A stretch of DNA of 51,185 nucleotides. Source: Streptomyces sp. adm13(2018). GTDB lineage: Bacteria; Actinomycetota; Actinomycetes; Streptomycetales; Streptomycetaceae. Made by a program: the position numbers and the translations under genes. The notes beneath the pieces are model-generated. The model worked only from the letters and a program-made list of their open reading frames with translations, was not told the DNA's origin and made no database searches. The DNA lies in NCBI RefSeq assembly GCF_008042145.1, contig NZ_RDBH01000129.1, positions 395,314-446,498 on the forward strand, read 5' to 3'. This document shows, piece after piece, positions 4,712-36,623 of the stretch (position 1 is the first letter of the stretch; each line of letters begins with the position of its first letter).

Positions 4712-5068
4712 TCAGTCCTCCGCCGGCCGCCCGTTCGTCCTGATCAGGTCGTGGCCGAACTCGATCATCTTCCGGGCGTAGTCCTCGGTCCACTGCGCCC
4801 GCTCGGCGACGTCCGCGGGCGTCAGCCGGTCGAACCGGCGCGGGTCCGCCAGCTGCGCCGCCGCGATCGCCTGGAACTCGGTCGCCCGGTCCGTCGCCGC
4901 GCGGAACGCCAGCGTCAGCTCCGTCGCGCGGGACAGCAGCTCCCGGGGGTCGTCTATCGACTCCAGGTCGAAGAAGTGCTCCGGGTCGGCGGTCGCCTCG
5001 GCAGGCTCGAAGACCAGCGGTGCCGGCCTGAGCCGCCGCTGTCCGCTCCGCTCCGCGGGTTCCGCCAT
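4712..5068 (-). CDS. Small conserved-type hypothetical protein
   Basis: 118 aa from an ATG at 5068 with GAGGAG about seven bases upstream. A much longer open frame runs through it to 6217, but that part is a shadow of the helicase gene. The protein is acidic and mostly helical in appearance. The C-terminal segment LTPADVAERAQWTEDYARKM could be a helix-turn-helix-like or protein-binding helix pair. I do not recognise the family. It lies 190 bp behind the helicase and has its own RBS and a strong terminator, so it is probably a separate unit. The 5' flank holds a short tandem repeat (GTTCCCGTTCAC, GTTCCCGTTGCC) near 5099-5124. Confidence 0.65.
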   Translation of the reverse strand: MAEPAERSGQRRLRPAPLVFEPAEATADPEHFFDLESIDDPRELLSRATELTLAFRAATDRATEFQAIAAAQLADPRRFDRLTPADVAERAQWTEDYARKMIEFGHDLIRTNGRPAED

Positions 5069-5259: not shown

Positions 5260-6630
5260 TCAGGGCGTCCAGGTGACGCGGTGCTCCTCCAGGTGGGAGA
5301 GGACCGCGTGGTTCGCCTCCCAGCCGTCCGGGAACGACACGGCGGCGCCCAGCTGCACCGGCTCGGTCGACGGGTGGGCGTCGAGCAGGTCCGCGACGCC
5401 CGCCCGGCAGACCACGACGCACGCGTGCCGGTGCCGGGAGGCGAGCACGCACAGCCGGCCCGTCTCCAGGTGGAAGGCGGTCGCGTCGGGCCGGCCGGAC
5501 AGCGGGTGGAGGACGACCGTCACGTCGTACTCGCGTCCCTGGAGCCGGTTCGCGGTGTCCACCGTCACGCCCGTGACGCCCAGCCCGGCGAGGGCCGCGC
5601 GGACCGCCGCCGCCTGGTCGCGGTGCGCGGTGCCGACCGCGACCCGGTCGGGCGTCAGCGGCACGGGGGTCTCCGAGCGCTCGGAGACCGCGGCCCCGCC
5701 CCGGTCGAGGAGCCGGCGCACCACGACGGCGACCGCGGCCACCGCCTCCGGGTCGGTGCGGGGGGTGTGCCGGGCGGGCAGTTCGAGCAGGCCCCAGCCC
5801 GACTCCGCCGCCTCGTCCAGCACCCGGTCGGGCCCCGAGCCGTCCGAGGCGACCGCGAAGGAGAGCCGCCGGTCGCCGGGCCCGGTGCCGCTGCGGAACG
5901 GCGTGAACGGATAGAACGCGTCCGAGACCAGCGGCGCCGCCGAGGCCGGCAGCCGCCAGGACACCGGCAGCCGGTGCTGCGGCAGGTCGGGGTTGTGCGC
6001 GAGCAGGGTGGAGACCGCGCTCGCCGACGGGTCGTACGAGAGTCCCGCCCACTGCTCGGCGCCCACCACCGAGAACGGGTCCAGCTGCCCGGGATCGCCC
6101 ACGAACAGGGCCCGCTCGAAGAGCCCCGCCACCGCGAGCAGCGCGTCCGAGCGCATCTGGTACGCCTCGTCGACGATCGCGTGCGCCCACGGCTCGACGT
6201 TCTTCACGTGCGCCCACTTGGCGGCCGTGGAGAGGACCACCGGCAGCCCGGCGAGCTCACCCGCCTTCGCCGACTTCCGTACGTTCTCCAGGTCGTTCAG
6301 CGCCTTGTCGTACGGGTCGCTGTCGTTCGAGTGGAGCCGGCCGACCTCCAGGTCCGGCTCCTTCTCGGCGAGCCGCAGCACCAGGTCGTCCACCTGCGCG
6401 TTCGTCTGGGCCACCACCATCAGCGGGCGTCCCTCCGCGGCCAGTTCGAGGGCGGCCCGCACCACCAGCGTCGACTTCCCGGCGCCGGGCGGGGAGTCCA
6501 CCACCACCCCGCGCGCGGTGCCGTGCAGGGTGGCCGCGAGGATGTCGGCCGTCGCCCGGCCCGCGGCGGCCGAGGGGTCGAACGGCGCCGCGTCCCCGAC
6601 GGGCGGCCTCGACAGGTCGAACACGGTCAC
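5260..6630 (-). CDS. SF1-type DNA/RNA helicase, third gene of the split Dna2-like operon
   Basis: 456 aa from a GTG that overlaps the upstream stop (GTGA). Walker A is SPPGAGKST (K52), Walker B/motif II is IVDEAYQ (D154, E155), motif III is VGDPGQLDP (from about 178). Near the end come a QGREYDVTVVL motif and an ASRHRHACVVV motif, the standard motif V/VI region of superfamily 1 helicases of the AAA_11/AAA_12 (UvrD/Dna2/Upf1-like) class. At 456 aa it is a bare motor with no nuclease or accessory domain. The nuclease is supplied by the first gene of the operon. Likely role: ATP-driven unwinding coupled to nucleolytic processing in repair or defence. The partner assignment is inferred from gene order and overlap. 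Confidence 0.85.
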   Translation of the reverse strand: MTVFDLSRPPVGDAAPFDPSAAAGRATADILAATLHGTARGVVVDSPPGAGKSTLVVRAALELAAEGRPLMVVAQTNAQVDDLVLRLAEKEPDLEVGRLHSNDSDPYDKALNDLENVRKSAKAGELAGLPVVLSTAAKWAHVKNVEPWAHAIVDEAYQMRSDALLAVAGLFERALFVGDPGQLDPFSVVGAEQWAGLSYDPSASAVSTLLAHNPDLPQHRLPVSWRLPASAAPLVSDAFYPFTPFRSGTGPGDRRLSFAVASDGSGPDRVLDEAAESGWGLLELPARHTPRTDPEAVAAVAVVVRRLLDRGGAAVSERSETPVPLTPDRVAVGTAHRDQAAAVRAALAGLGVTGVTVDTANRLQGREYDVTVVLHPLSGRPDATAFHLETGRLCVLASRHRHACVVVCRAGVADLLDAHPSTEPVQLGAAVSFPDGWEANHAVLSHLEEHRVTWTP

Positions 6631-8216
6631 AGCACGTCCTCCGGGGTCACGGCGTCGGGCAGTTCCACGGCGTCGGCCCGCGGCGGACCGCCGTGCGTCC
6701 AGGGCGTCTCCTCGGCCTCCGGCAGCTGCGGCCCGACCCGCTGGTCGTGCTCGAACAGGGTGAAGGCGATCCGCTCGCCCTTCTCCGGCACCGAGCCCTC
6801 CGCCGGCTCCTTCGAGCGGCCCATCCGGTCGAGGAGCCGCAGCAGCAGCGCCCCGTCCTCCTCGTACCGCACGAACTCCGCCGACTGCGGCTTCCCGTCG
6901 AGCGAGCGGTACACCTTCACCTTCTCGCCCAGATGCGGCCGGTCCTCGGTGCGGACCGTGAGGAGCGGCCGCGGGGCGGGCCGCTTGGACTCCGTCCACG
7001 CCATCGTCACCTCGACCACCTCGGCCGCGAACGCCTCGCCCGACAGCCGCCGTCCGGCGAGCACCAGCGGATCGTCCAGGGCCTCCTGCGCCTCCAGCTG
7101 ACCCTGCGCCTGCTCCCGCGCGGCGAGCTTCCGGGCCGCCGTCACGGCGTCGTCCCGGCGCGGCTGCGGCGGCTCGCCCGCGGTGACCCGGTCCCGGTGG
7201 GCGGTGAACGACCAGCGGTCGCGGGTCCAGCGGTCCTCGACCCTGGCCCCCTCCGGCAGCTCCCGCAGCAGACCGACCGCTCGCCAGACCGCGTCCCAGG
7301 TGGGCCGCAGCTGGGAGACGACCAGCCGCCGCACCTCCCGCTCCGCCCGGTGCAGCTCACCGAGACCGCGCTCGGCCGCCTCGCCGTCCTCGGCCGCGCC
7401 GACCGCCTGCCGCGCCCGGTCGTACCGCTCGATCGCGGGCGCGAGCAGCCCGTTGTCGAAGGCGGGATCGGTGGCGGGCCCGGCGGGCGGACAGAACAGC
7501 TGCCCCCGCGGGTCCCGGCCCGTCTCGGCCCGCAGCGCCGCCTCGGCGCCCGGCCCCCCGTCGTACGGGTCGATCCACGCGAGCAGCGCCCCCAGGTGCT
7601 GGTCCTCCAGCGAGGACTGACCGGTCGCCCAGTGCCGGTTGAGCAGGTCGGTCGCGCTGAGCAGCAGCGAGGACCCGGGCACCCGGGCCCGGTCGCCGAA
7701 GTGCGTCAGCCACCGCCCGAGCAGCGGCACCCGGGGCGGCGCGGGGAACGGCGTCTCCGGGTCCTGCTCGGCCGTCCGGCGGAACCGCGTGGACCGCCCG
7801 AGCAGCCGTACGTACTCGATGCCCGCCCGGCTCGGCACGATCAGCTGCGGCGCGTCCGCGCACAGCTCGACCTCGACCTTCACCTTCTTGCCGGATTCGG
7901 GGTCGACCTCGCTCTTCTCCGCCGCCTCGACGGCCGCCGCGAAGGAGTCGACGTACGGCAGGACCTCCTCGGCCAGATCGGCGAGGAAGGCGAACCGCAG
8001 CTCCCGGTCCCGGGGCTGGGCCACCACCAGGAGCCTCGGCTCCTCCGGGTCGGTGCCGACGAGCGCCCCCAGCGGGGCACCCGCCTCACCGGCCGTGGTC
8101 AGCGGGACGAGGACGAGGGGCCGTGCGGAGAGCCGCCGGTGCCGGACGGTGGCCAGCGGCTGCGCGCGGCCGGACTCGACGGCCTCCATCCGGGCCAGGG
8201 TGGAGATCAGCGACAT
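6627..8216 (-). CDS. Protein of unknown function between nuclease and helicase
   Basis: 529 aa, ATG start, overlapping the nuclease gene by 10 bp and the helicase gene by 4 bp. I recognise no family. The sequence is soluble, rich in Arg/Glu, with a charged stretch around residues 95-110 (EKSEVDPESGKKVKVEVEL), a helical middle that looks coiled-coil-like (AAERGLGELHRAEREVRRLV), and a C-terminal part near 400-480 (VKVYRSLDGKPQSAEFVRYE) that could be a small beta-barrel of the kind inserted in SF1 helicases. Strict overlaps on both sides argue that it is made in step with both enzymes and is a structural or loading subunit. That is inference from context only. Confidence 0.8.
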   Translation of the reverse strand: MSLISTLARMEAVESGRAQPLATVRHRRLSARPLVLVPLTTAGEAGAPLGALVGTDPEEPRLLVVAQPRDRELRFAFLADLAEEVLPYVDSFAAAVEAAEKSEVDPESGKKVKVEVELCADAPQLIVPSRAGIEYVRLLGRSTRFRRTAEQDPETPFPAPPRVPLLGRWLTHFGDRARVPGSSLLLSATDLLNRHWATGQSSLEDQHLGALLAWIDPYDGGPGAEAALRAETGRDPRGQLFCPPAGPATDPAFDNGLLAPAIERYDRARQAVGAAEDGEAAERGLGELHRAEREVRRLVVSQLRPTWDAVWRAVGLLRELPEGARVEDRWTRDRWSFTAHRDRVTAGEPPQPRRDDAVTAARKLAAREQAQGQLEAQEALDDPLVLAGRRLSGEAFAAEVVEVTMAWTESKRPAPRPLLTVRTEDRPHLGEKVKVYRSLDGKPQSAEFVRYEEDGALLLRLLDRMGRSKEPAEGSVPEKGERIAFTLFEHDQRVGPQLPEAEETPWTHGGPPRADAVELPDAVTPEDVL

Positions 8217-9418
8217 GTCCGCGCCTCCGCCCCCGCCAGGGCCTCCTCGCGCAGGGCCCGCGCCCGGCGCAGCGCCGCCACCGCCGGGTCGTCCGGGTCC
8301 CCCTCCTCGCCCCGGGCGGCCCGGAGGACCGCGCCGACCGTCGTCAGCCCGCCCAGCTCACCCCGTACCGAGCGGCCCAGGGTCTCCACCGCCTCCGCCT
8401 CCCGGGCCCGCGAGCGGCAGTGGAAGGCCAGCTCGCAGGCGGCCAGGCACTCCGACGCGTACTGGTGGGGCACGCACTCCACGGCCGCCGCCAGCTCCTC
8501 CGCCGAGCGCTCCGCCAGGTCGAAGCCGACGCCCTCGGGCAGCGCGGCGGCGATCTCGTCGACCCGGGTCAGCCGGTCGAGCTGGCGGCGGGTCACCGAC
8601 CGCTGCTTGCGCACGTCGACGACCGAGGCCGTCGGCAGGTTGGAGAAGTCCTTCGGGCAGACGAGGAGCACCGAGGGGGCCACCCGGGCGCCCTCGGTGA
8701 CCGCCGCCACCCGTTCGAGCGCGAGCACGTACACGGCGGCCTGCCGGGCGGCCGCGCCGACCTTGGAGGCGTCCGCCGCGCCGTCGACCATCGGGAAGGA
8801 CTTGATCTCCACGACCGTCCACCCGCCGTCGGGGCGGACCACCACGGCGTCCGGCTCCAGGTAGACCGGCGAACCGGCCACCTCCAGGGCGAGCAGCGGG
8901 TGGTCGAGGAGAGTCCACGCGCCGGCCGCGGTCGCCTCCCGCAGGGCGAGGGCGGTGCGGGCCACCCGCCCCTCGGGTCCGGCGGCCGTCAGCTCGGGCA
9001 CGGAGACCGCGCCCGGCTCCTCGACGCCGATCAGCCGCAGCAGCTCGCGGCCGCCGTCGGCCTTGACCTTCGCCTCGAAGGAGTTCCCCCGGACGATCGC
9101 GAACTGGGACTGCCCGAAGGGGGCGGGCGAGCCGAGCCTCTCGGCCAGGGCGGACTTGTCGACGCCCGCGCCGTCGAGCAGGGCCCGGCGCCGGCAGCCG
9201 GGGTTCGCGGCCAGCGCCGCGAGGGCCCGCGCGTCGAGCGGACGCGGCGGGGTGGCCGGTCCGCGCAGCTCAGCGAGCCTCTCCCACGCTCTCTGCTTCG
9301 CCGGAGCTGGAGCTGGAGCAGGGGAGGCCCCTGGTCGACGTGTCGTCTGCGGAGGTCGGGAAGGTCCGCTGTCCGGGGATGCGCTCACCCGCGGAAGTCT
9401 CGCATCCGCCACTGACAA
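8207..9418 (-). CDS. Cas4/RecB-family Fe-S nuclease (PD-(D/E)XK), first gene of the operon
   Basis: Up to 403 aa from a TTG at 9418; a GTG at 9412 or 9388 is also possible because no strong RBS decides. The nuclease core is clear: D190 in LEPDAVVV, E204 and K206 in VVEIKSF, and Q226-x3-Y230 (QAAVY), the RecB-family QxxxY motif. Cysteines C75 and then C324, C328 and C334 (C-x3-C-x5-C) flank this core, the layout that holds a 4Fe-4S cluster in Cas4, AddB and Dna2. The N-terminal 60 residues are a Pro/Ala-rich tail. Predicted role: metal-dependent ssDNA exonuclease or nicking activity. No cas genes or repeats are nearby, so it is not a CRISPR adaptation protein here. The 5' end overlaps the PAP2 gene in another frame. 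Confidence 0.83.
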   Translation of the reverse strand: MSVADARLPRVSASPDSGPSRPPQTTRRPGASPAPAPAPAKQRAWERLAELRGPATPPRPLDARALAALAANPGCRRRALLDGAGVDKSALAERLGSPAPFGQSQFAIVRGNSFEAKVKADGGRELLRLIGVEEPGAVSVPELTAAGPEGRVARTALALREATAAGAWTLLDHPLLALEVAGSPVYLEPDAVVVRPDGGWTVVEIKSFPMVDGAADASKVGAAARQAAVYVLALERVAAVTEGARVAPSVLLVCPKDFSNLPTASVVDVRKQRSVTRRQLDRLTRVDEIAAALPEGVGFDLAERSAEELAAAVECVPHQYASECLAACELAFHCRSRAREAEAVETLGRSVRGELGGLTTVGAVLRAARGEEGDPDDPAVAALRRARALREEALAGAEARTCR

Positions 9419-10160
9419 CCGGGGGAGCTTCCGCCGTTCCGCGCAGTCGCCGGGCGAGCCGCAGCACGGGCGGGGTGAGGAGCAGACCGGCCCCCATCAC
9501 GGCCGCGCCGGCGACCGCGTCCAGCAGGTAGTGGTTGGCGGTGCCCATCACGACCACCGTCGTGAGCAGCGGATACGCGACCCCGAGGGCCTTCGCGGCC
9601 GGGGTCCGCCCGTACCGCCAGAGCATCACCCCGCACCACAGGGCCCAGCCGACGTGCAGGCTGGGCATGGCCGCGTACTGGTTCGTGAGACCGCCGAGCC
9701 CGCGCGGCGCGCTGGCCTCGCCGCCCCACCAGCCGTACGCGCTGAAGTGCGCCATCGTGTCGGTGAAGCCGTGCACCGGGTCGAGCAGCCGGGGCGGGCA
9801 GGTGGGCAGCAGGGTGAAGCCGACCAGGCCGAGCAGGGTGGAGACCATCAGCCAGGTCCGGGCGGCCCGGTAGTGGGCGGGGCGGCGGCGGAAGAGCCAC
9901 AGCAGGATCGCCGGGGTGACCAGGTAGTGCAGGGAGGCGTACGCGAAGTCCGCCGGGATCCCGAGCGCGGGCACGTCCGTGAACAGCCGGTTCAGCGGAT
10001 GTTCGGCGTCGATGCCGAGCAGCCGCTCCAGGCGCAGGATCGCCAGCCCGTGCTCGACGGCCGAGGCCTCGTCGCCGCGGACGAGCAGCCGCCCGCCCGA
10101 GTAGGCCGCGTACACGACCCCGATCAGTGCCAGTTCCGCCCACCAGCGTGGCTTGCGCAT
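9270..10160 (-). CDS. PAP2-superfamily membrane phosphatase / inositolphosphotransferase-like
   Basis: 296 aa from ATG 10160 (MRKPRWWAELALIGVVYAAY); the open frame reaches further upstream without support. Several membrane helices are visible (about residues 8-25, 85-100, 120-140, 185-205, 215-245). Catalytic motifs of the PAP2 fold are present: MPSLHVGWA and ANHYLLDAVAG, giving the two His and one Asp. The family acts on lipid phosphates at the outer membrane face. The last 45 residues are a polar Ser-rich tail that lies over the start of the nuclease gene in a different frame. Confidence 0.8.
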   Translation of the reverse strand: MRKPRWWAELALIGVVYAAYSGGRLLVRGDEASAVEHGLAILRLERLLGIDAEHPLNRLFTDVPALGIPADFAYASLHYLVTPAILLWLFRRRPAHYRAARTWLMVSTLLGLVGFTLLPTCPPRLLDPVHGFTDTMAHFSAYGWWGGEASAPRGLGGLTNQYAAMPSLHVGWALWCGVMLWRYGRTPAAKALGVAYPLLTTVVVMGTANHYLLDAVAGAAVMGAGLLLTPPVLRLARRLRGTAEAPPVVSGGCETSAGERIPGQRTFPTSADDTSTRGLPCSSSSSGEAESVGEAR

Positions 10161-31442: not shown

Positions 31443-33230
31443 TCACGCGAAGCGGGCGATCGGGTTCACCAGGTCGCCGACGAGCTGGAGGGCCGCCGAC
31501 GGGTCCGAGAGGTCGACCATCTGCTTGTTGTTGCGGAGCTGGAGGCGGTTCAGGGCCGACAGCGCGAAGGTCTCCGCGAACATGTCGTACTGGGCGAACC
31601 GGTCCGCCAGCTCCGGCTTCGACCGCTCGTAGCCGCGCACGCACTCCGCGACCGTCCGCCAGAAGTCGTCCTCGCCGAGGACGCCCTCCGCGGCGAGCGT
31701 CGACGCCAGGAAGCGGAAGAAGCAGTCGAAGACGTCCGTGAAGACCGACAGGAGCTTCATGTCCTCCGGGATGTCCGCACGGACCCGCTCCACCGCCGGC
31801 GGCAGGACCGCCGCCGGGTCCATGACGACGATCTCCTCGGCGATGTCCTTGAAGATCGCCCGCACCACCGCGCCGCGCTCGTCGAGGACCAGGATCACGT
31901 TCTCGCCGTGCGGCATGAACGCCAGGTCGTACGCGTAGAAGCTGTGCAGGACCGGGAGGAGGTAGGCGTCCAGGTACTGCCGGAGCCACCCGGTCGGCTC
32001 CTGGCCCGACTCCTTGATCAGCGCGCCCGCGAACGACGCGCCCGCGCGGTCCACGTGCAGGAGGGACGCCATCGTCGCCGGCCGCTCGCCCTCGGCGAGG
32101 GTCGGCACCGGGGACTCGCGCCAGAGCGCCGCCAGCATCTTGCGGTACGGCGAGTAGCGGTCGGTCGCCGCCTCGTACTCCAGGTGCCGGTAGCCCACGG
32201 CCGCCCGCTCCCGGATGATCGAGAAGCGCGCCGCCGCGAAGACGGAGTCCGACTCGATCAGGGTGTGCAGCCAGTCGTTGATGGCCGGCGTGGCCTCCAT
32301 GTACGCGGCCGACAGGCCCCGCATGAAGCCCATGTTGAGGACGGAGAGCGCCGTCTTCACATAGTGCTTGGCCGGGTCCGAGGTGTTGAAGAAGGTACGG
32401 ATCGACTGCTGCGCCAGATAGGTGTCGTCGCCCTCGCCCAGGTACACCAGGCGCTGCTGCGCCACCTCGGCCGCGAACGTCACCGACAGCTTGTTCCACC
32501 ACTGCCAGGGGTGCACCGGCATCAGGAGGTAGTCGGCCAGGTCCAGGCCGCGGGCCGCCAGGGTCGCCGCGAAGGCGTCCACCGCCGCGTCGCCGAGCTC
32601 CTCGCGGACGAAGACCTCGTAGTCGATGCCCGCGCCGGCCGTGAAGGTGGTCCGGTCGCGCCGCGCCGCCAGCCAGATCAGCCGGATGTCGCTCGCCGCC
32701 TCGGGGGCGTACGCGCGGAACTCGTCGACGCCGAAGCCGAGCCGGCCGTTGTTGGCGACGAAGCAGGGGTGGCCCTCGGTCATCCCCGTCTCGATCGCCT
32801 GGAAGCCCGCCCGGGCCAGCTCGGCGGAGGTCACCGGCTCCTTGGTCGCCTTGAAGGCCGTGCCCGCCAGCGTGGAGGAGATCTCCTCCAGGTACACCGG
32901 CAGGACCTCGTCGCTCAGGCCGAGGGCGCCGCGCAGCTCGGTCACGAACTGGAGGGCGTCCAGCGGGAGCTGCTCGTCGCCGCGGTGGCGGCTGATCGAC
33001 TCGGCGTAGACCTGCCAGTGGTCGAGGGCGAACCGGTCCGCGGTGAAGCGGTACTCGGTGGCGCCGTCGTCCGACCGGACCACGTACCGGCTGTCGCCGA
33101 GCTCCCGCGGGTCCAGCAGCCGCTCGTGGGCGAACTCGGCGAGGCCCTTGCGGATCAGCGCGCGGTTGGCCTCGGCCCAGAGCTCGGGCGTGAGGTGCGC
33201 GACGGGGTTCGCGCGGTCGGTGGCGCTCAT
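31443..33230 (-). CDS. desD: DesD, desferrioxamine NRPS-independent siderophore synthetase
   Basis: 595 aa, ATG start overlapping desC (ATGA). An IucA/IucC-family NIS synthetase with the family motifs GHPCFVANNGRLGFGVDEFR, LMPVHPWQWWNKL and AFMPHGENVILVLDERG (ATP and acceptor sites). It adenylates and joins N-hydroxy-N-succinyl-cadaverine units, then closes the ring to desferrioxamine E. Last gene of desABCD, terminated by the hairpin at 31388-31432. Confidence 0.96.
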   Translation of the reverse strand: MSATDRANPVAHLTPELWAEANRALIRKGLAEFAHERLLDPRELGDSRYVVRSDDGATEYRFTADRFALDHWQVYAESISRHRGDEQLPLDALQFVTELRGALGLSDEVLPVYLEEISSTLAGTAFKATKEPVTSAELARAGFQAIETGMTEGHPCFVANNGRLGFGVDEFRAYAPEAASDIRLIWLAARRDRTTFTAGAGIDYEVFVREELGDAAVDAFAATLAARGLDLADYLLMPVHPWQWWNKLSVTFAAEVAQQRLVYLGEGDDTYLAQQSIRTFFNTSDPAKHYVKTALSVLNMGFMRGLSAAYMEATPAINDWLHTLIESDSVFAAARFSIIRERAAVGYRHLEYEAATDRYSPYRKMLAALWRESPVPTLAEGERPATMASLLHVDRAGASFAGALIKESGQEPTGWLRQYLDAYLLPVLHSFYAYDLAFMPHGENVILVLDERGAVVRAIFKDIAEEIVVMDPAAVLPPAVERVRADIPEDMKLLSVFTDVFDCFFRFLASTLAAEGVLGEDDFWRTVAECVRGYERSKPELADRFAQYDMFAETFALSALNRLQLRNNKQMVDLSDPSAALQLVGDLVNPIARFA

Positions 33231-33757
33231 ACGGCGGCTCCCACGGCGGCCTCGAACTGCTCCCGGGTGCAGAAGCTCAGCAGGGCCTTCTTCTCGGGCT
33301 TCTGGATCTCCCGCTCGGGCACGAAGCCGACGACCGCGTTGAGCGCGTGGACGGCCTTGTTGGCCACGTCCGGCTCGACGACGACCCGCTTCGTCGCCGG
33401 ATCGGCGAACAGCTCCGTCATCACGGCGGTGATCACGGTCCGCGTGAAGCCGTGCACGGGGGTGTCGGTGGGCGCGACGAGGAAGTGCATGCCGACGTCG
33501 CCGGGGAGCGGGTCGTAGAGCCCGACCAGCTCCAGGTGCGCGGGGTCGTACCGCTCCATCAGGAAGGCGGGCTCGCCGTCGACCAGACCGATGAAGACAT
33601 GGTGGTGCGGGTGGGCGCTGAACGCCGCGTACTCGCGCTCGACGTCCTGGAGCGTGGCGTCCTGCATCATCCAGTAGGCGGCCTTGGGGTGGGTGACCCA
33701 GGGATGGATCAGCGCCGCGTCCTTCAGCGGGTCGAAGGGGCGTATCGATACGGTCAT
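33227..33757 (-). CDS. desC: DesC, N-hydroxycadaverine acyltransferase
   Basis: 176 aa from ATG 33757, overlapping desB (ATGA) and desD (ATGA). A GNAT-fold acyltransferase of the IucB/RhbD type: [16 protein letters not shown] at the start, [20 protein letters not shown], then [13 protein letters not shown] and the CoA-binding half ([20 protein letters not shown]). It transfers succinyl or acetyl groups to N-hydroxycadaverine. Confidence 0.93.
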
Positions 33758-35037
33758 GCCGCGAACTCCTGGAAAGCGATGGTCTTCTCGACGGGGTAGT
33801 ACTCGTAGCCCAGCATCGCCCCGATGATGTACGCGTTGCGGTACGCCCCCATGCCGAGGTCGGGCGAGGTGATCGAGTGGGTGTGCACGGAGGAGTTCTG
33901 GACGAACACCCCGCGGCCCGTCGTGTCGACGGCGTAGTTGCGGGCCACGTCGAAGCGGCCCCGGCCGTCCCAGTTGAGGCGGTCGCGGACCGGCTCCAGG
34001 AAGGCGGGGACGCTGTACCGGTAGCCGGTGGCGAGGATCAGGCCCTCGGTGTCCAGGGTGAAGTCCCGCTCCTGCTCCTCCTGGCGGAAGCCGAGGGTGT
34101 ACGTGCCCGTCGACTCCTCGTACGCGGCGTCGTGCAGCGCGGAGTTGGTGAGGAGCCGGGTGGGGACGGGGCCGTTCAGGTTCTTCTGGTAGAGCAGGTC
34201 GAAGATGGCGTCGATCAGCTCGCCGTCGATGCCCTTGAAGAGGCCCTTCTGCTCGGTCTCCAGGCGGTAGCGGGTCCGCTCGGGCAGCGCGTGGAAGTAG
34301 TCCACGTACTCCGGGGACGTCATCTCCAGGGTGAGCTTGGTGTACTCCAGCGGGAAGAAGCGCGGGGAGCGCGTCACCCAGTTCAGCCGGTACCCGTGGA
34401 CGTCGATCTCGCTCAGGAGGTCGTAGTAGATCTCCGCGGCGCTCTGGCCGCTGCCGACCAGGGTGATCGACTTCTTCTTCTGGAGCGCCTCCTTGTTCGG
34501 GAGGTAGCGCGAGTTGTGGATGAGGTCGCCGCCGAGGCCCCGGCAGTTCTCGGGGACGTACGGCGGGGTGCCGGTGCCCAGCACCAGACGGCGGGCGCGG
34601 AACGTCTCCCCGGCCTCGGTCGTCACCGCGTACACCTCGGCCGCCTCGTCGAACTCCACGGTCGCGACGGTCGTCGAGAAGCGGACCGAGGAGAGGCGCC
34701 CGGCGGCCCAGCGGCAGTAGTCGTTGTACTCGGTGCGCAGCGGGTAGAAGTTCTCGCGGATGTAGAACGAGTACAGCCGGCCCTTGTCCTTGAGGTAGTT
34801 CAGGAACGAGTACGGCGAGGTCGGGTCGGCCATCGTGACCAGGTCCGACATGAACGGGGTCTGGAGGTGCGCGCCCTCCAGGAACATCCCGGAGTGCCAC
34901 TCGAAGTCGGGCTTGGACTCCAGGAAGAGGCCGTTCAGCTCGTCGATCGGCTCGGTCAGGCAGGCGAGACCGAGGTTGAACGGACCGAGTCCGATGCCGA
35001 TGAAGTCGTGGATCTCGGTCGTCTCAGGCGTGGACAA
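33754..35037 (-). CDS. desB: DesB, cadaverine N-monooxygenase
   Basis: 427 aa, TTG start, overlapping the desA stop by 14 bp. FAD-binding [14 protein letters not shown] at the N-terminus, an NADPH site ([16 protein letters not shown]), and the late [15 protein letters not shown] motif. This is the lysine/ornithine N-hydroxylase family (IucD, SidA), which here acts on cadaverine from DesA. FAD and NADPH dependent. Confidence 0.95.
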
Positions 35038-36502
35038 GGGTCTCTCCCAGGTACTGCTCGGCGTGGCCGGCGATCAGATCGAGGACGGCGGCGATGTCGG
35101 CCGCGGTGGTCTCGGGGTTGAGCAGGGTGAACTTGAGGTACTGGCGGCCGTCGACCTTGGTGCCCGCGACGACGGCCTCGCCGGAGGCGAACAGGGCCTT
35201 GCGGGCGTGCAGGTTGGCGCGGTCGATCTCCTCGGGGGAGGCGGCGGCGGCCGGGATGTAGCGGTAGACGAGGGTGGAGAGCTGCGGCTCGACGACGACG
35301 TCGTAGCGCGGGTCGGCGGCGAGCAGGGCGAAGCCCTCGGCGGCCAGGTCGCAGACCTCGTCGAAGAGCGAGCCGACGCCGTCGGCGCCCATCACGCGCA
35401 GCGTCATCCAGAGCTTGAGCGCGTCGAAGCGGCGGGTGGTCTGGAGGGACTTGTCGACCTGGTTGGGCAACCGCTCGGCGAGCATGGGGGTCCCCCCTGT
35501 TCGAGCGGAGTCGAGAACGTGGGGGAGGGCCGGGTTCAGGTAGTCGGCGTGGTAGGTCGCGTGGCGCAGGGTCGCCCCGTCGCGGACCAGGAACGCGGAG
35601 GAGCTCACCGGCTGGAAGAACGACTTGTGGAAGTCGACGGTGACCGAGTCGGCCTTCTCGATGCCGTCCAGGAGGTGGCGGCGGGTCGGCGAGGCGAGCA
35701 GTCCGCAGCCGTAGGCCGCGTCGACGTGCATCCAGGCGCCGTACTCGTCGGCCAGCGCGGCGATCTCGTGCAGCGGGTCGATGGAGCCGAAGTCGGTGGT
35801 GCCGGCGGTGGCGACGACCGCCATCGGGACGAGGCCCTCGGCGCGGCAGGCCTCCAGCTCGGCGGCGAGGACGACGGACTGCATGCGCTTGTTCCGGTCG
35901 ACCGGGATGGAGACGACGGCGTCCATGCCGAGGCCGAGGAGCTTCGCCGACTTCTGGACGCTGAAGTGGCTGCACTCGGACGAGAAGATCCGCAGCTTCG
36001 ACAGGTCGGTGCTCTTCGCCTCCTCGCGGGCGAGCAGCAGCGCCTGGAGGTTGGACTGCGAACCGCCGCTGGTGAACACGCCGTCGGCGGCCGGGCCGAA
36101 GCCGACGCGGCCGTTGGTCCAGTCGACGAGCTTGCGCTCGATGAGGGTGCCGCCGGCGCTCTGGTCCCAGGTGTCCAGCGAGGAGTTGACCGCCGAGAGG
36201 ACGGCCTCGCCGAGGACGGCCGGGATGACCACGGGGCAGTTGAGGTGGCCCAGGTAGCGGGGGTGGTGGAAGTAGACGGCGTCGCGGAGGTAGACGTCCT
36301 CCAGCTCGTCGAGCGCGGCGGAGGCGTCGCCCAGCGGCCGGTCGAGGTCGACGGCGTCGATGGCGGGCGCGAGCTCGGCCGGGGTCACTCCGGTGAACGG
36401 GCCCCGGGTCGCGGCGAGTTTCCCCGCCACCCGCTCGACTCCCTCGGTGACGGAGCGTCGGTAGCTCTCCGCCGTGGCGTCGTTGAGCAGGTGAGAGCGC
36501 AT
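35024..36502 (-). CDS. desA: DesA, lysine decarboxylase, with an in-frame repeat insertion
   Basis: 492 aa from ATG 36502 ([18 protein letters not shown]), with GGAGG nine bases upstream; the open frame reaches 36580 but without an RBS. A PLP group II decarboxylase: K293 in [15 protein letters not shown] is the Schiff-base lysine, with HVDAAYGCG upstream. It turns lysine into cadaverine. Residues about 325-340 ([16 protein letters not shown]) are encoded by a short repeat of a kind scattered in Streptomyces genomes and look like an insertion into a loop. Transcription is expected from an iron-repressed promoter under the iron box at 36578-36596. Confidence 0.95.
35483..35528 (-). repeat. REP-like short palindromic insertion in desA
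   Basis: About 46 bp. On the minus strand it reads CCCCCACGTTCTCGACTCCG followed by CTCGAACAGGGGGGACCCCC. I know very similar C-run/CTCGA/G-run sequences from many Streptomyces loci. Here it is in frame and adds about 16 residues. The copy is imperfectly palindromic. Confidence 0.6.
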
Positions 36503-36553
36503 GTGGGGGGCCTCCAGGCACGGGGCTGGGTCGCGCCCTCCGGACAGGGGAAA

Positions 36554-36623
36554 GGGGCGAGGGGCGACACGGTGAAACAAGGTTAGCCTAACCTAACTCT
36601 TTCACCGTGTCGTCCCTCGCCCC
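36554..36623. repeat. 24-bp inverted repeat surrounding the desA iron box
   Basis: Arms 36554-36577 and 36600-36623 are reverse complements at 23 of 24 positions and enclose 22 bp that hold the iron box. The inner 13 bp of each arm (CGACACGGTGAAA and complement) are perfect. Confidence 0.9.
36578..36596. promoter_or_regulatory. DmdR-type iron box of desABCD
   Basis: CAAGGTTAGCCTAACCTAA matches the 19-bp actinobacterial iron box (TTAGGTTAGCCTAACCTAA) at 17 positions. It lies about 75 bp upstream of the desA ATG. Iron-loaded DmdR1/DtxR-like repressor should shut the operon off. Confidence 0.9.

Follow-up and report, generated by a model that had tools for sequence, protein, structure and literature searches.

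A conserved three-gene, Dna2-like set of nuclease, middle protein and helicase in Streptomyces, with part of the helicase apparently carried on another gene

Can a Dna2-like nuclease-helicase be distributed over three genes and, if so, what does the additional protein contribute? The question is raised by a locus on contig NZ_RDBH01000129.1 of Streptomyces sp. adm13(2018) (assembly GCF_008042145.1), where three overlapping genes lie within a stretch of 51,185 nucleotides (forward-strand positions 395,314 to 446,498) that was analysed at its full length and is referred to here as the window. The original prediction interpreted the three genes as a Dna2 enzyme split into parts, with a new middle subunit, serving repair, replication or phage defence. 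We find a real, conserved three-gene Dna2-like system, in which the unusual claim is that a domain of the helicase has moved to another gene; the one-chain kind is already known as Bad, and the three-chain form is the variant. We judge it reasonably probable that the trio constitutes the subunits of one Dna2-like end-processing nuclease-helicase, which is housekeeping in Streptomyces and reused beside defence systems, where complex, polarity and function are what we infer. The operon comprises the following features, located by open reading frame (ORF) calls for genes and overlaps, by conservation for motifs and by structural realignment (VIA-align) for folds.

8207 to 9418, minus strand: gene for a Cas4/RecB-type PD-(D/E)XK nuclease with a predicted iron-sulfur (Fe-S) cluster, 403 amino acids (aa), TTG start
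6627 to 8216, minus strand: gene for the middle protein, 529 aa, ATG start
5260 to 6630, minus strand: gene for a bare DNA2/UPF1-type superfamily 1 (SF1) helicase, 456 aa, GTG start
8207 to 8216, minus strand: overlap of the nuclease and middle genes, 10 base pairs (bp)
6627 to 6630, minus strand: overlap of the middle and helicase genes, 4 bp
9194 to 9196, minus strand: C75, first predicted Fe-S ligand
8417 to 8449, minus strand: C324, C328 and C334 (C-X3-C-X5-C), the other predicted Fe-S ligands
8849 to 8851, minus strand: D190, nuclease motif
8801 to 8809, minus strand: E204-I205-K206, nuclease motif
8729 to 8743, minus strand: QxxxY motif, nuclease residues 226-230
7227 to 8126, minus strand: middle protein residues 31-330, possible RNase H/DnaQ-type exonuclease fold (weak match)
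6741 to 7154, minus strand: middle protein residues 355-492, long helix and beta-barrel resembling an SF1B stalk and 1B domain
6472 to 6492, minus strand: Walker A motif PPGAGKS with K52, helicase
6160 to 6171, minus strand: Walker B motif D154-E155-A156-Y157, helicase

The three ORFs and both overlaps are present as described in the original prediction, the residues named there are present and conserved, and motifs agree with fold and profile relatives on a Dna2-like set of parts. In the nuclease, D190, E204, K206, Q226 and Y230 and the cysteines C75, C324, C328 and C334 are invariant in an alignment of ten sequences. A wider conservation set, in which a length filter kept 117 of 118 nucleases and 119 of 120 helicases, consists mostly of Streptomyces rows that are not independent of one another; here D190 and Y230 are found in all 117 nucleases, Q226 in 116, K206 in 115 and E204 in 114, while C324, C328 and C334, spaced as C-X3-C-X5-C, are each found in 117 and C75 in 115. 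All five active-site residues are retained in 114 of the 117 sequences, as the original prediction anticipated for most homologues. The exceptions are L155, without E204, and the near-identical L157 and L158, the only operon pair in which both E204 and K206 are missing from the nuclease; the three C-terminal cysteines are retained. An additional PD-(D/E)XK nuclease gene, divergently placed, lies beside the L157 and L158 operons (L157:11238-12875, plus strand; L158:2395-4032, minus strand), and may be a replacement for their own nuclease.

The Pfam PDDEXK_1 match to the nuclease is weak (E-value 0.0037, under the cut-off). The AlphaFold model of this subunit (mean predicted local distance difference test, pLDDT, 67.6) matches the folds of Cas4 (Z-score 10.2), AddAB (8.8), MGME1 (8.8) and EXO5 (8.6) and, in a lower group that also contains RecB, those of AdnA (7.2) and Dna2 (6.0), which are the matches that a nuclease of the Cas4/RecB/DNA2 class should give. 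The four conserved cysteines are predicted from the sequence to hold an Fe-S cluster, and the prediction relies on their conservation because the regions that contain them (residues 53-85 and 325-343) are poorly modelled, with pLDDT below 50. Against the PDB, the profile of the nuclease picked up two designed proteins along 33 residues, and these hits were set aside as low-complexity.

In the helicase, an alignment of 11 sequences shows no variation at K52 or at D154-E155-A156-Y157, and K52, D154 and E155 are each present in all 119 sequences of the wider set. The protein matches Pfam AAA_11 (9.4e-12) and AAA_12 (1.4e-6), and its best PDB profile matches are DNA2 (7.7e-10), IGHMBP2 (9.8e-9) and UPF1 (1.3e-6). 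The Pfam search returned no UvrD row for it, and the locus does not have the UvrD/Rep-type (SF1A) motor fused to a nuclease by which AddAB and AdnAB are recognised; by its sequence, the motor qualifies as an SF1B helicase of the DNA2/UPF1 type. In helicases of the DNA2/IGHMBP2/UPF1 type, stalk and 1B domain occupy about 200 residues ahead of the motor (PDB numbering), and among 120 homologues of the present helicase the Walker lysine is located at median residue 43 (range 29-78). Because Walker A sits this near to the N-terminus, the helicase chain must be without a stalk and 1B domain. A few helicase or middle genes (L140 and L152/L166, family f74) are interrupted, occurring in pieces or with an internal TGA, through errors or decay.

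The middle protein matches no described family, as the original prediction held: sequence searches of Pfam, NCBIfam, PADLOC, PHROGs and the PDB (sequence and profile) returned no match, and its Pfam rows lie far under the cut-off (for instance Caa3_CtaG, E-values of 0.024-0.13). Its AlphaFold model, for which the alignments used in structure prediction contained 61 of 80 middle sequences from named loci (48 of 77 for the nuclease), has a mean pLDDT of 71.0 and a predicted template modelling score of 0.57, with residues 391-490 forming a block of pLDDT 81-92. When Foldseek's top 1000 chains were structurally realigned with VIA-align, yielding 999 aligned chains, the first four rows for the C-terminus of the middle protein were the stalk/1B regions of the SF1B helicases Ighmbp2, Senataxin and Sen1 (two entries). 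Residues 6-145 of Ighmbp2 (Z 9.2, 118 aligned residues, root-mean-square deviation, rmsd, 5.2), 1139-1287 of Senataxin (Z 8.7, 127 aligned, rmsd 6.7) and 1177-1286 of Sen1 (Z 8.6, 83 aligned, rmsd 2.5) align onto residues 355-503 of the middle protein, and residues 456-569 of Dna2 follow at rank 46 (Z 7.3, 103 aligned, rmsd 3.4). Trust in the match is raised because the domain had been expected from sequence before the model was made, and because stalk and 1B are what the helicase is missing. In the model, therefore, residues 355-492 look like the missing stalk and 1B barrel of the helicase, in which case the middle protein is not wholly new and the helicase itself appears to be split. The subunit announced as new in the original prediction thus stands outside described families, with a C-terminal part that looks like the helicase's own stalk and 1B barrel.

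The N-terminal half gives a fainter signal. Residues 31-330 align weakly in VIA-align with the exonuclease domain of family-B DNA polymerases (Z 7.4-8.1, 168-182 residues), a weak hint from the model that this half may adopt an RNase H-type exonuclease fold; its first strand has no DxE motif, the consensus being L-V-L-V-P-L-T. Sequence and profile comparison found no homology behind either fold match of the middle protein. Beyond the barrel, a PWTH motif at residues 505-508 is nearly invariant (W, T and H in 121 of 121 sequences, P in 120 of 121) and could be a contact site.

We searched a class sample of 296 genomes with profiles or proteins for each gene, and found each of the three in 48 genomes; the lists are identical, and 248 genomes have none. 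By coordinates the genes are adjacent, within 1.5 kilobases (kb) of each other, in 46 of the 48, and unlinked in only two, in agreement with the linkage foreseen by the original prediction. In G350 the middle gene is interrupted by a contig break. In G204 and G394, which belong to one family, nuclease and middle genes are adjacent with the helicase about 36 and 49 kb off, and the retention of all three genes despite this distance speaks for a link in function that goes further than shared transcription. The divergent sets that G182, G321, G397 and G441 carry as a second copy also contain all three genes, and trees of the middle and helicase proteins from 38 chosen loci recover the same main groups.

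The trio is concentrated in Streptomyces. The middle protein occurs in 10 of 217 genomes of a phylum-wide sample and in 187 of 199 genomes of a genus sample, 8 of the 12 genomes without it being assemblies of at least 480 contigs; the class sample has the trio in 27 of 28 Streptomyces genomes, G432 lacking it. At least 80 named Streptomyces contigs encode a middle protein of 75-96% identity, from which it follows that these are no chance ORFs. Among the 80 listed, the nuclease gene adjoins the middle gene in 77 and the helicase gene in 79, and the four misses all fall at contig ends. No phage or viral contig carries the trio; plasmid carriage amounts to three records, one of which is an 11.85-Mb Nonomuraea replicon labelled plasmid.

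How does the set relate to known enzymes? The closest in plan is Bad, which the available part of its description (PMC7430649) presents as a bacterial one-chain DNA2-like helicase-nuclease with a 5'-to-3' motor, an Fe-S nuclease and a central domain whose role is unknown; the same text reports a second Bad class in Mycobacteria and a Bad gene adjoining a DNA methyltransferase gene in Geobacillus, and its authors suggest a role in restriction. We infer that the actinomycete proteins of family TIGR03491 (TM0106) correspond to this second, mycobacterial class. In two genomes these proteins combine RNase_H_2 and AAA_11/AAA_12 in one chain of roughly 1200 aa, with PDDEXK_1 above cut-off in one, and a median of 279 residues separates the RNase H motif from Walker A (11 of 20 measured). 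Bad and TIGR03491 proteins are ordered like the trio, with an Fe-S RecB-type nuclease first, then a central domain that eukaryotic DNA2 does not have, and an SF1B helicase last; they differ in that Bad is one chain of about 1150 aa, whereas the window and the relatives read have three separate ORFs rather than the single chain of DNA2 and Bad. To the central RNase_H_2 domain the middle protein offers a fold hint at Z of about 8, with Pfam and profile comparison negative. The NCBIfam model TIGR03491 matches none of the three window proteins, nor anything else in their own genome.

Profile comparison (every fourth sequence of L031-L110 against 18 of 20 one-chain regions) aligned the helicase along its length with the one-chain enzyme (E-value 3.7e-26). 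The proposal that the trio is the TM0106 enzyme cut at domain borders was rejected, as the helicase aligns clearly, the nuclease weakly and the middle protein not at all; for this reason our claim for the middle protein is one of similar plan and not of common descent. TIGR03491 is present in 100 of the 296 class genomes and shares 2 of them (G050 and G447) with the trio, against 16.2 expected (Fisher P 2e-7, ignoring kinship). In family f73 the trio is present in 7 genomes and the one-chain enzyme in 13, in family f74 in 10 and 14, and no genome of either family has both. By genus the overlap occurs in 2 of 12 trio genera, which is not clearly under chance, and replacement of one form by the other is therefore suggested rather than shown.

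Eukaryotic DNA2 is the nearest solved relative of the helicase, and both the nuclease and the barrel match it in fold; the gene order nuclease, barrel, helicase is also what we take to be the domain order of DNA2. The eukaryotic enzyme differs in being a single chain, and has no recognised counterpart to the N-terminal half of the middle protein. Ighmbp2, Senataxin, Sen1 and UPF1 share the helicase core and have a stalk/1B barrel resembling the middle C-terminus, but carry that barrel within the helicase chain, whereas in the trio it would lie on another gene. AddAB and AdnAB likewise pair a RecB-type nuclease with an SF1 motor, and differ in that the trio is made of three small proteins on separate chains. 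A search of the open-licence PMC literature for the trio or for a link between Wadjet and Dna2 brought up only Bad as a close relative; we do not claim absence in print.

Divergent copies of the set occupy a different setting. Two Streptomyces plasmids (that of NBC_01244 linear, the WAC00288 record labelled circular) carry a set with a middle protein about 41% identical; in both, a gene for a protein of about 280 aa precedes the set, and a complete Wadjet type I (JetA-D) in the same orientation lies about 150 bp beyond the helicase gene. The ~280-aa gene accompanies the set in 16 distinct loci (e.g. L170:9971-10813, plus strand). Its product belongs to no known family, has an N-terminal heptad-like helix and an LRRDEERS...RPYY motif, and is found only with divergent trio versions; its profile is present in 15 of the 296 class genomes, in two of them partially. 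SbcC and SbcD divergently adjoin this gene in 5 of the 16 loci, and both trees place the SbcCD-linked loci and G439 in a single group (support 96/94 and 99/94). On the WAC00288 plasmid (L169:208-2251) SbcC/SbcD is broken into short frames, being intact in the related plasmid.

PADLOC was applied to downstream genes in G447, G321, G397, G182 and one plasmid, out of the 16 four-gene loci. A complete Wadjet type II follows directly after the trio helicase gene in G447 (L236, G447:C4:22500-36000), and HmaA, HmaB and HmaC follow the helicase gene of the divergent trio in G321 (L237, G321:C8:236000-252500); downstream of the set, G397 shows nothing beyond a weak match to a restriction enzyme, and G182 has a helicase akin to restriction enzymes. 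Wadjet is reported in 42% of Actinobacteria genomes in the accessible text of PMC10482375, and a chance neighbourhood is conceivable because the system is this common; it is unlikely because in four loci the defence genes (Wadjet I, Wadjet II, Hma) have the same orientation and begin no more than about 160 bp downstream. Jet genes stand by the trio in two loci for type I and one for type II, which is not the constant linkage of a Wadjet accessory module. Wadjet (JetABCD) and Hma are neighbours of divergent copies only, absent from the window, and have no homology to the trio nuclease or middle protein. PADLOC 2023 gave no match to either of these two proteins and only partial matches of the helicase to Mokosh and other helicases, and the same holds for the plasmid copy. 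Within the 51 kb, the window's own copy is accompanied by neither SbcCD nor Wadjet type I nor a 280-aa gene; the 280-aa gene is absent from its genome, and none of the three is within reach in the 80 named core loci. The linkage to defence genes that the original prediction asked about is thus seen in divergent copies elsewhere and not in the copy in the window.

Several results weigh against a single Dna2-like enzyme with a relocated 1B domain. Foldseek returned nothing at an E-value of 0.001 or better with either the nuclease or the middle model, and its top rows for the latter are unrelated (APPL BAR-PH, F1-ATPase barrels), Upf1 standing at rank 21 amid unrelated proteins. Other six-stranded barrels, such as ferredoxin reductases, reach Z 8.1 on the middle protein, within 1 of Sen1 and Senataxin, and only Ighmbp2 scores more than 1 Z above unrelated barrels. 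Compared by profile with the one-chain nuclease, the trio nuclease reached 42% probability at an E-value of 2.6e-4, and the middle protein, whole or in slices, matched nothing in the one-chain enzyme. The 3 of 117 nucleases with lost active-site residues indicate that the set can in some cases do without catalysis by this subunit, and the trio itself is dispensable, given that it is missing from some Streptomyces.

In one alternative, the trio serves everywhere primarily as defence against mobile elements, and the chromosomal copy of Streptomyces is a domesticated or resident form of that system. The divergent copies beside Wadjet I, Wadjet II, Hma and SbcCD favour it, as does the Bad gene beside a methyltransferase gene in Geobacillus, so far as the available text of PMC7430649 describes it. 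We nevertheless consider it unlikely, since the core copy is present in 187 of 199 Streptomyces with neighbours conserved at 72 and 56 of 80 loci (among the matches listed), since no 280-aa gene, SbcCD or Wadjet I lies by that copy in the window or the 80 named loci, and since no phage or viral contig carries the trio. Alternatively, the three proteins could work separately and share no more than a transcript, for example as independent DNA-repair factors. This would fit the two genomes with a distant helicase gene; it is distinctly improbable in view of a three-way presence and absence that is perfect across 296 genomes, including those in which the genes lie far from each other, and of a middle protein that seems to bear the helicase's missing domain.

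The middle protein could also be the main enzyme, an RNase H/DnaQ-type exonuclease with nuclease and helicase as helpers, to which the match of residues 31-330 to family-B polymerase exonuclease domains and the RNase_H_2 domain at the corresponding place of the one-chain enzyme both point. The missing DxE motif in the first strand, the null result of comparing profiles with the RNase H segment of the one-chain enzyme and the fact that a Z near 8 can arise from a common arrangement make this very improbable. Within the preferred reading of one end-processing nuclease-helicase, a bolder version holds that the helicase is split over two genes with 1B on the other chain, which would also carry the nuclease, giving an obligate three-subunit Dna2, and that a mobile four-gene degradation module is paired with SbcCD and with unrelated cutters such as Wadjet I/II and Hma, whose cut DNA it would finish off; we advance it tentatively, as possible rather than probable.

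A Dna2-like enzyme of this kind might work as follows. The SF1B helicase would be the motor, and the middle protein would tie it to the nuclease, its C-terminal stalk and barrel, if the modelled fold match is right and the assembly forms, supplying the 1B grip on DNA. The Fe-S Cas4-type nuclease would cut the single strand fed to it by the motor; by analogy with DNA2 and Bad, the enzyme would load at a 5' end, travel 5' to 3' and cut en route. The chromosomal trio of Streptomyces would process DNA ends, flaps or stalled forks, and may do the job of the one-chain Bad/TM0106 enzyme in related genera. Gene order suggests that the divergent trio and the ~280-aa protein, a possible adaptor in the mobile form, would together with SbcCD degrade DNA cut by Wadjet or Hma.

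The two conserved neighbours of the operon are the following.

4712 to 5068, minus strand: 118-aa gene of unknown family, downstream neighbour
9270 to 10160, minus strand: PAP2_3 family membrane phosphatase gene, upstream neighbour (Pfam PAP2_3, 7.2e-68)

Among the matches listed, the downstream neighbour, a protein with no Pfam match, was matched in the 72 loci counted above, several loci ending early, and the PAP2_3 neighbour in the 56. Elsewhere in the window, genes for an IucA/IucC synthetase with an FhuF domain, a lysine/ornithine monooxygenase and a pyridoxal-dependent decarboxylase stand in a row at 31443-36580, an arrangement known from hydroxamate siderophore clusters of the desferrioxamine type, and a PAS-GGDEF-EAL protein, a cyclic-di-GMP enzyme, is encoded at 155-2122 on the minus strand.

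Streptomyces have linear chromosomes, whose ends need protection from end-processing enzymes. If the proposed reading is true, nearly all members of the genus contain a conserved, uncharacterised end-processing enzyme, and a Dna2-type machine would be available in parts, with motor, barrel and nuclease each open to separate study and exchange. The middle protein would provide a free-standing counterpart for testing the central domain of Bad, whose role is given as unknown in the available part of PMC7430649. According to the accessible text of PMC10586767, Wadjet cleaves circular plasmids of small size and leaves linear DNA intact, and the gene order with Wadjet and SbcCD would offer a testable answer on the fate of plasmid DNA after Wadjet cutting.

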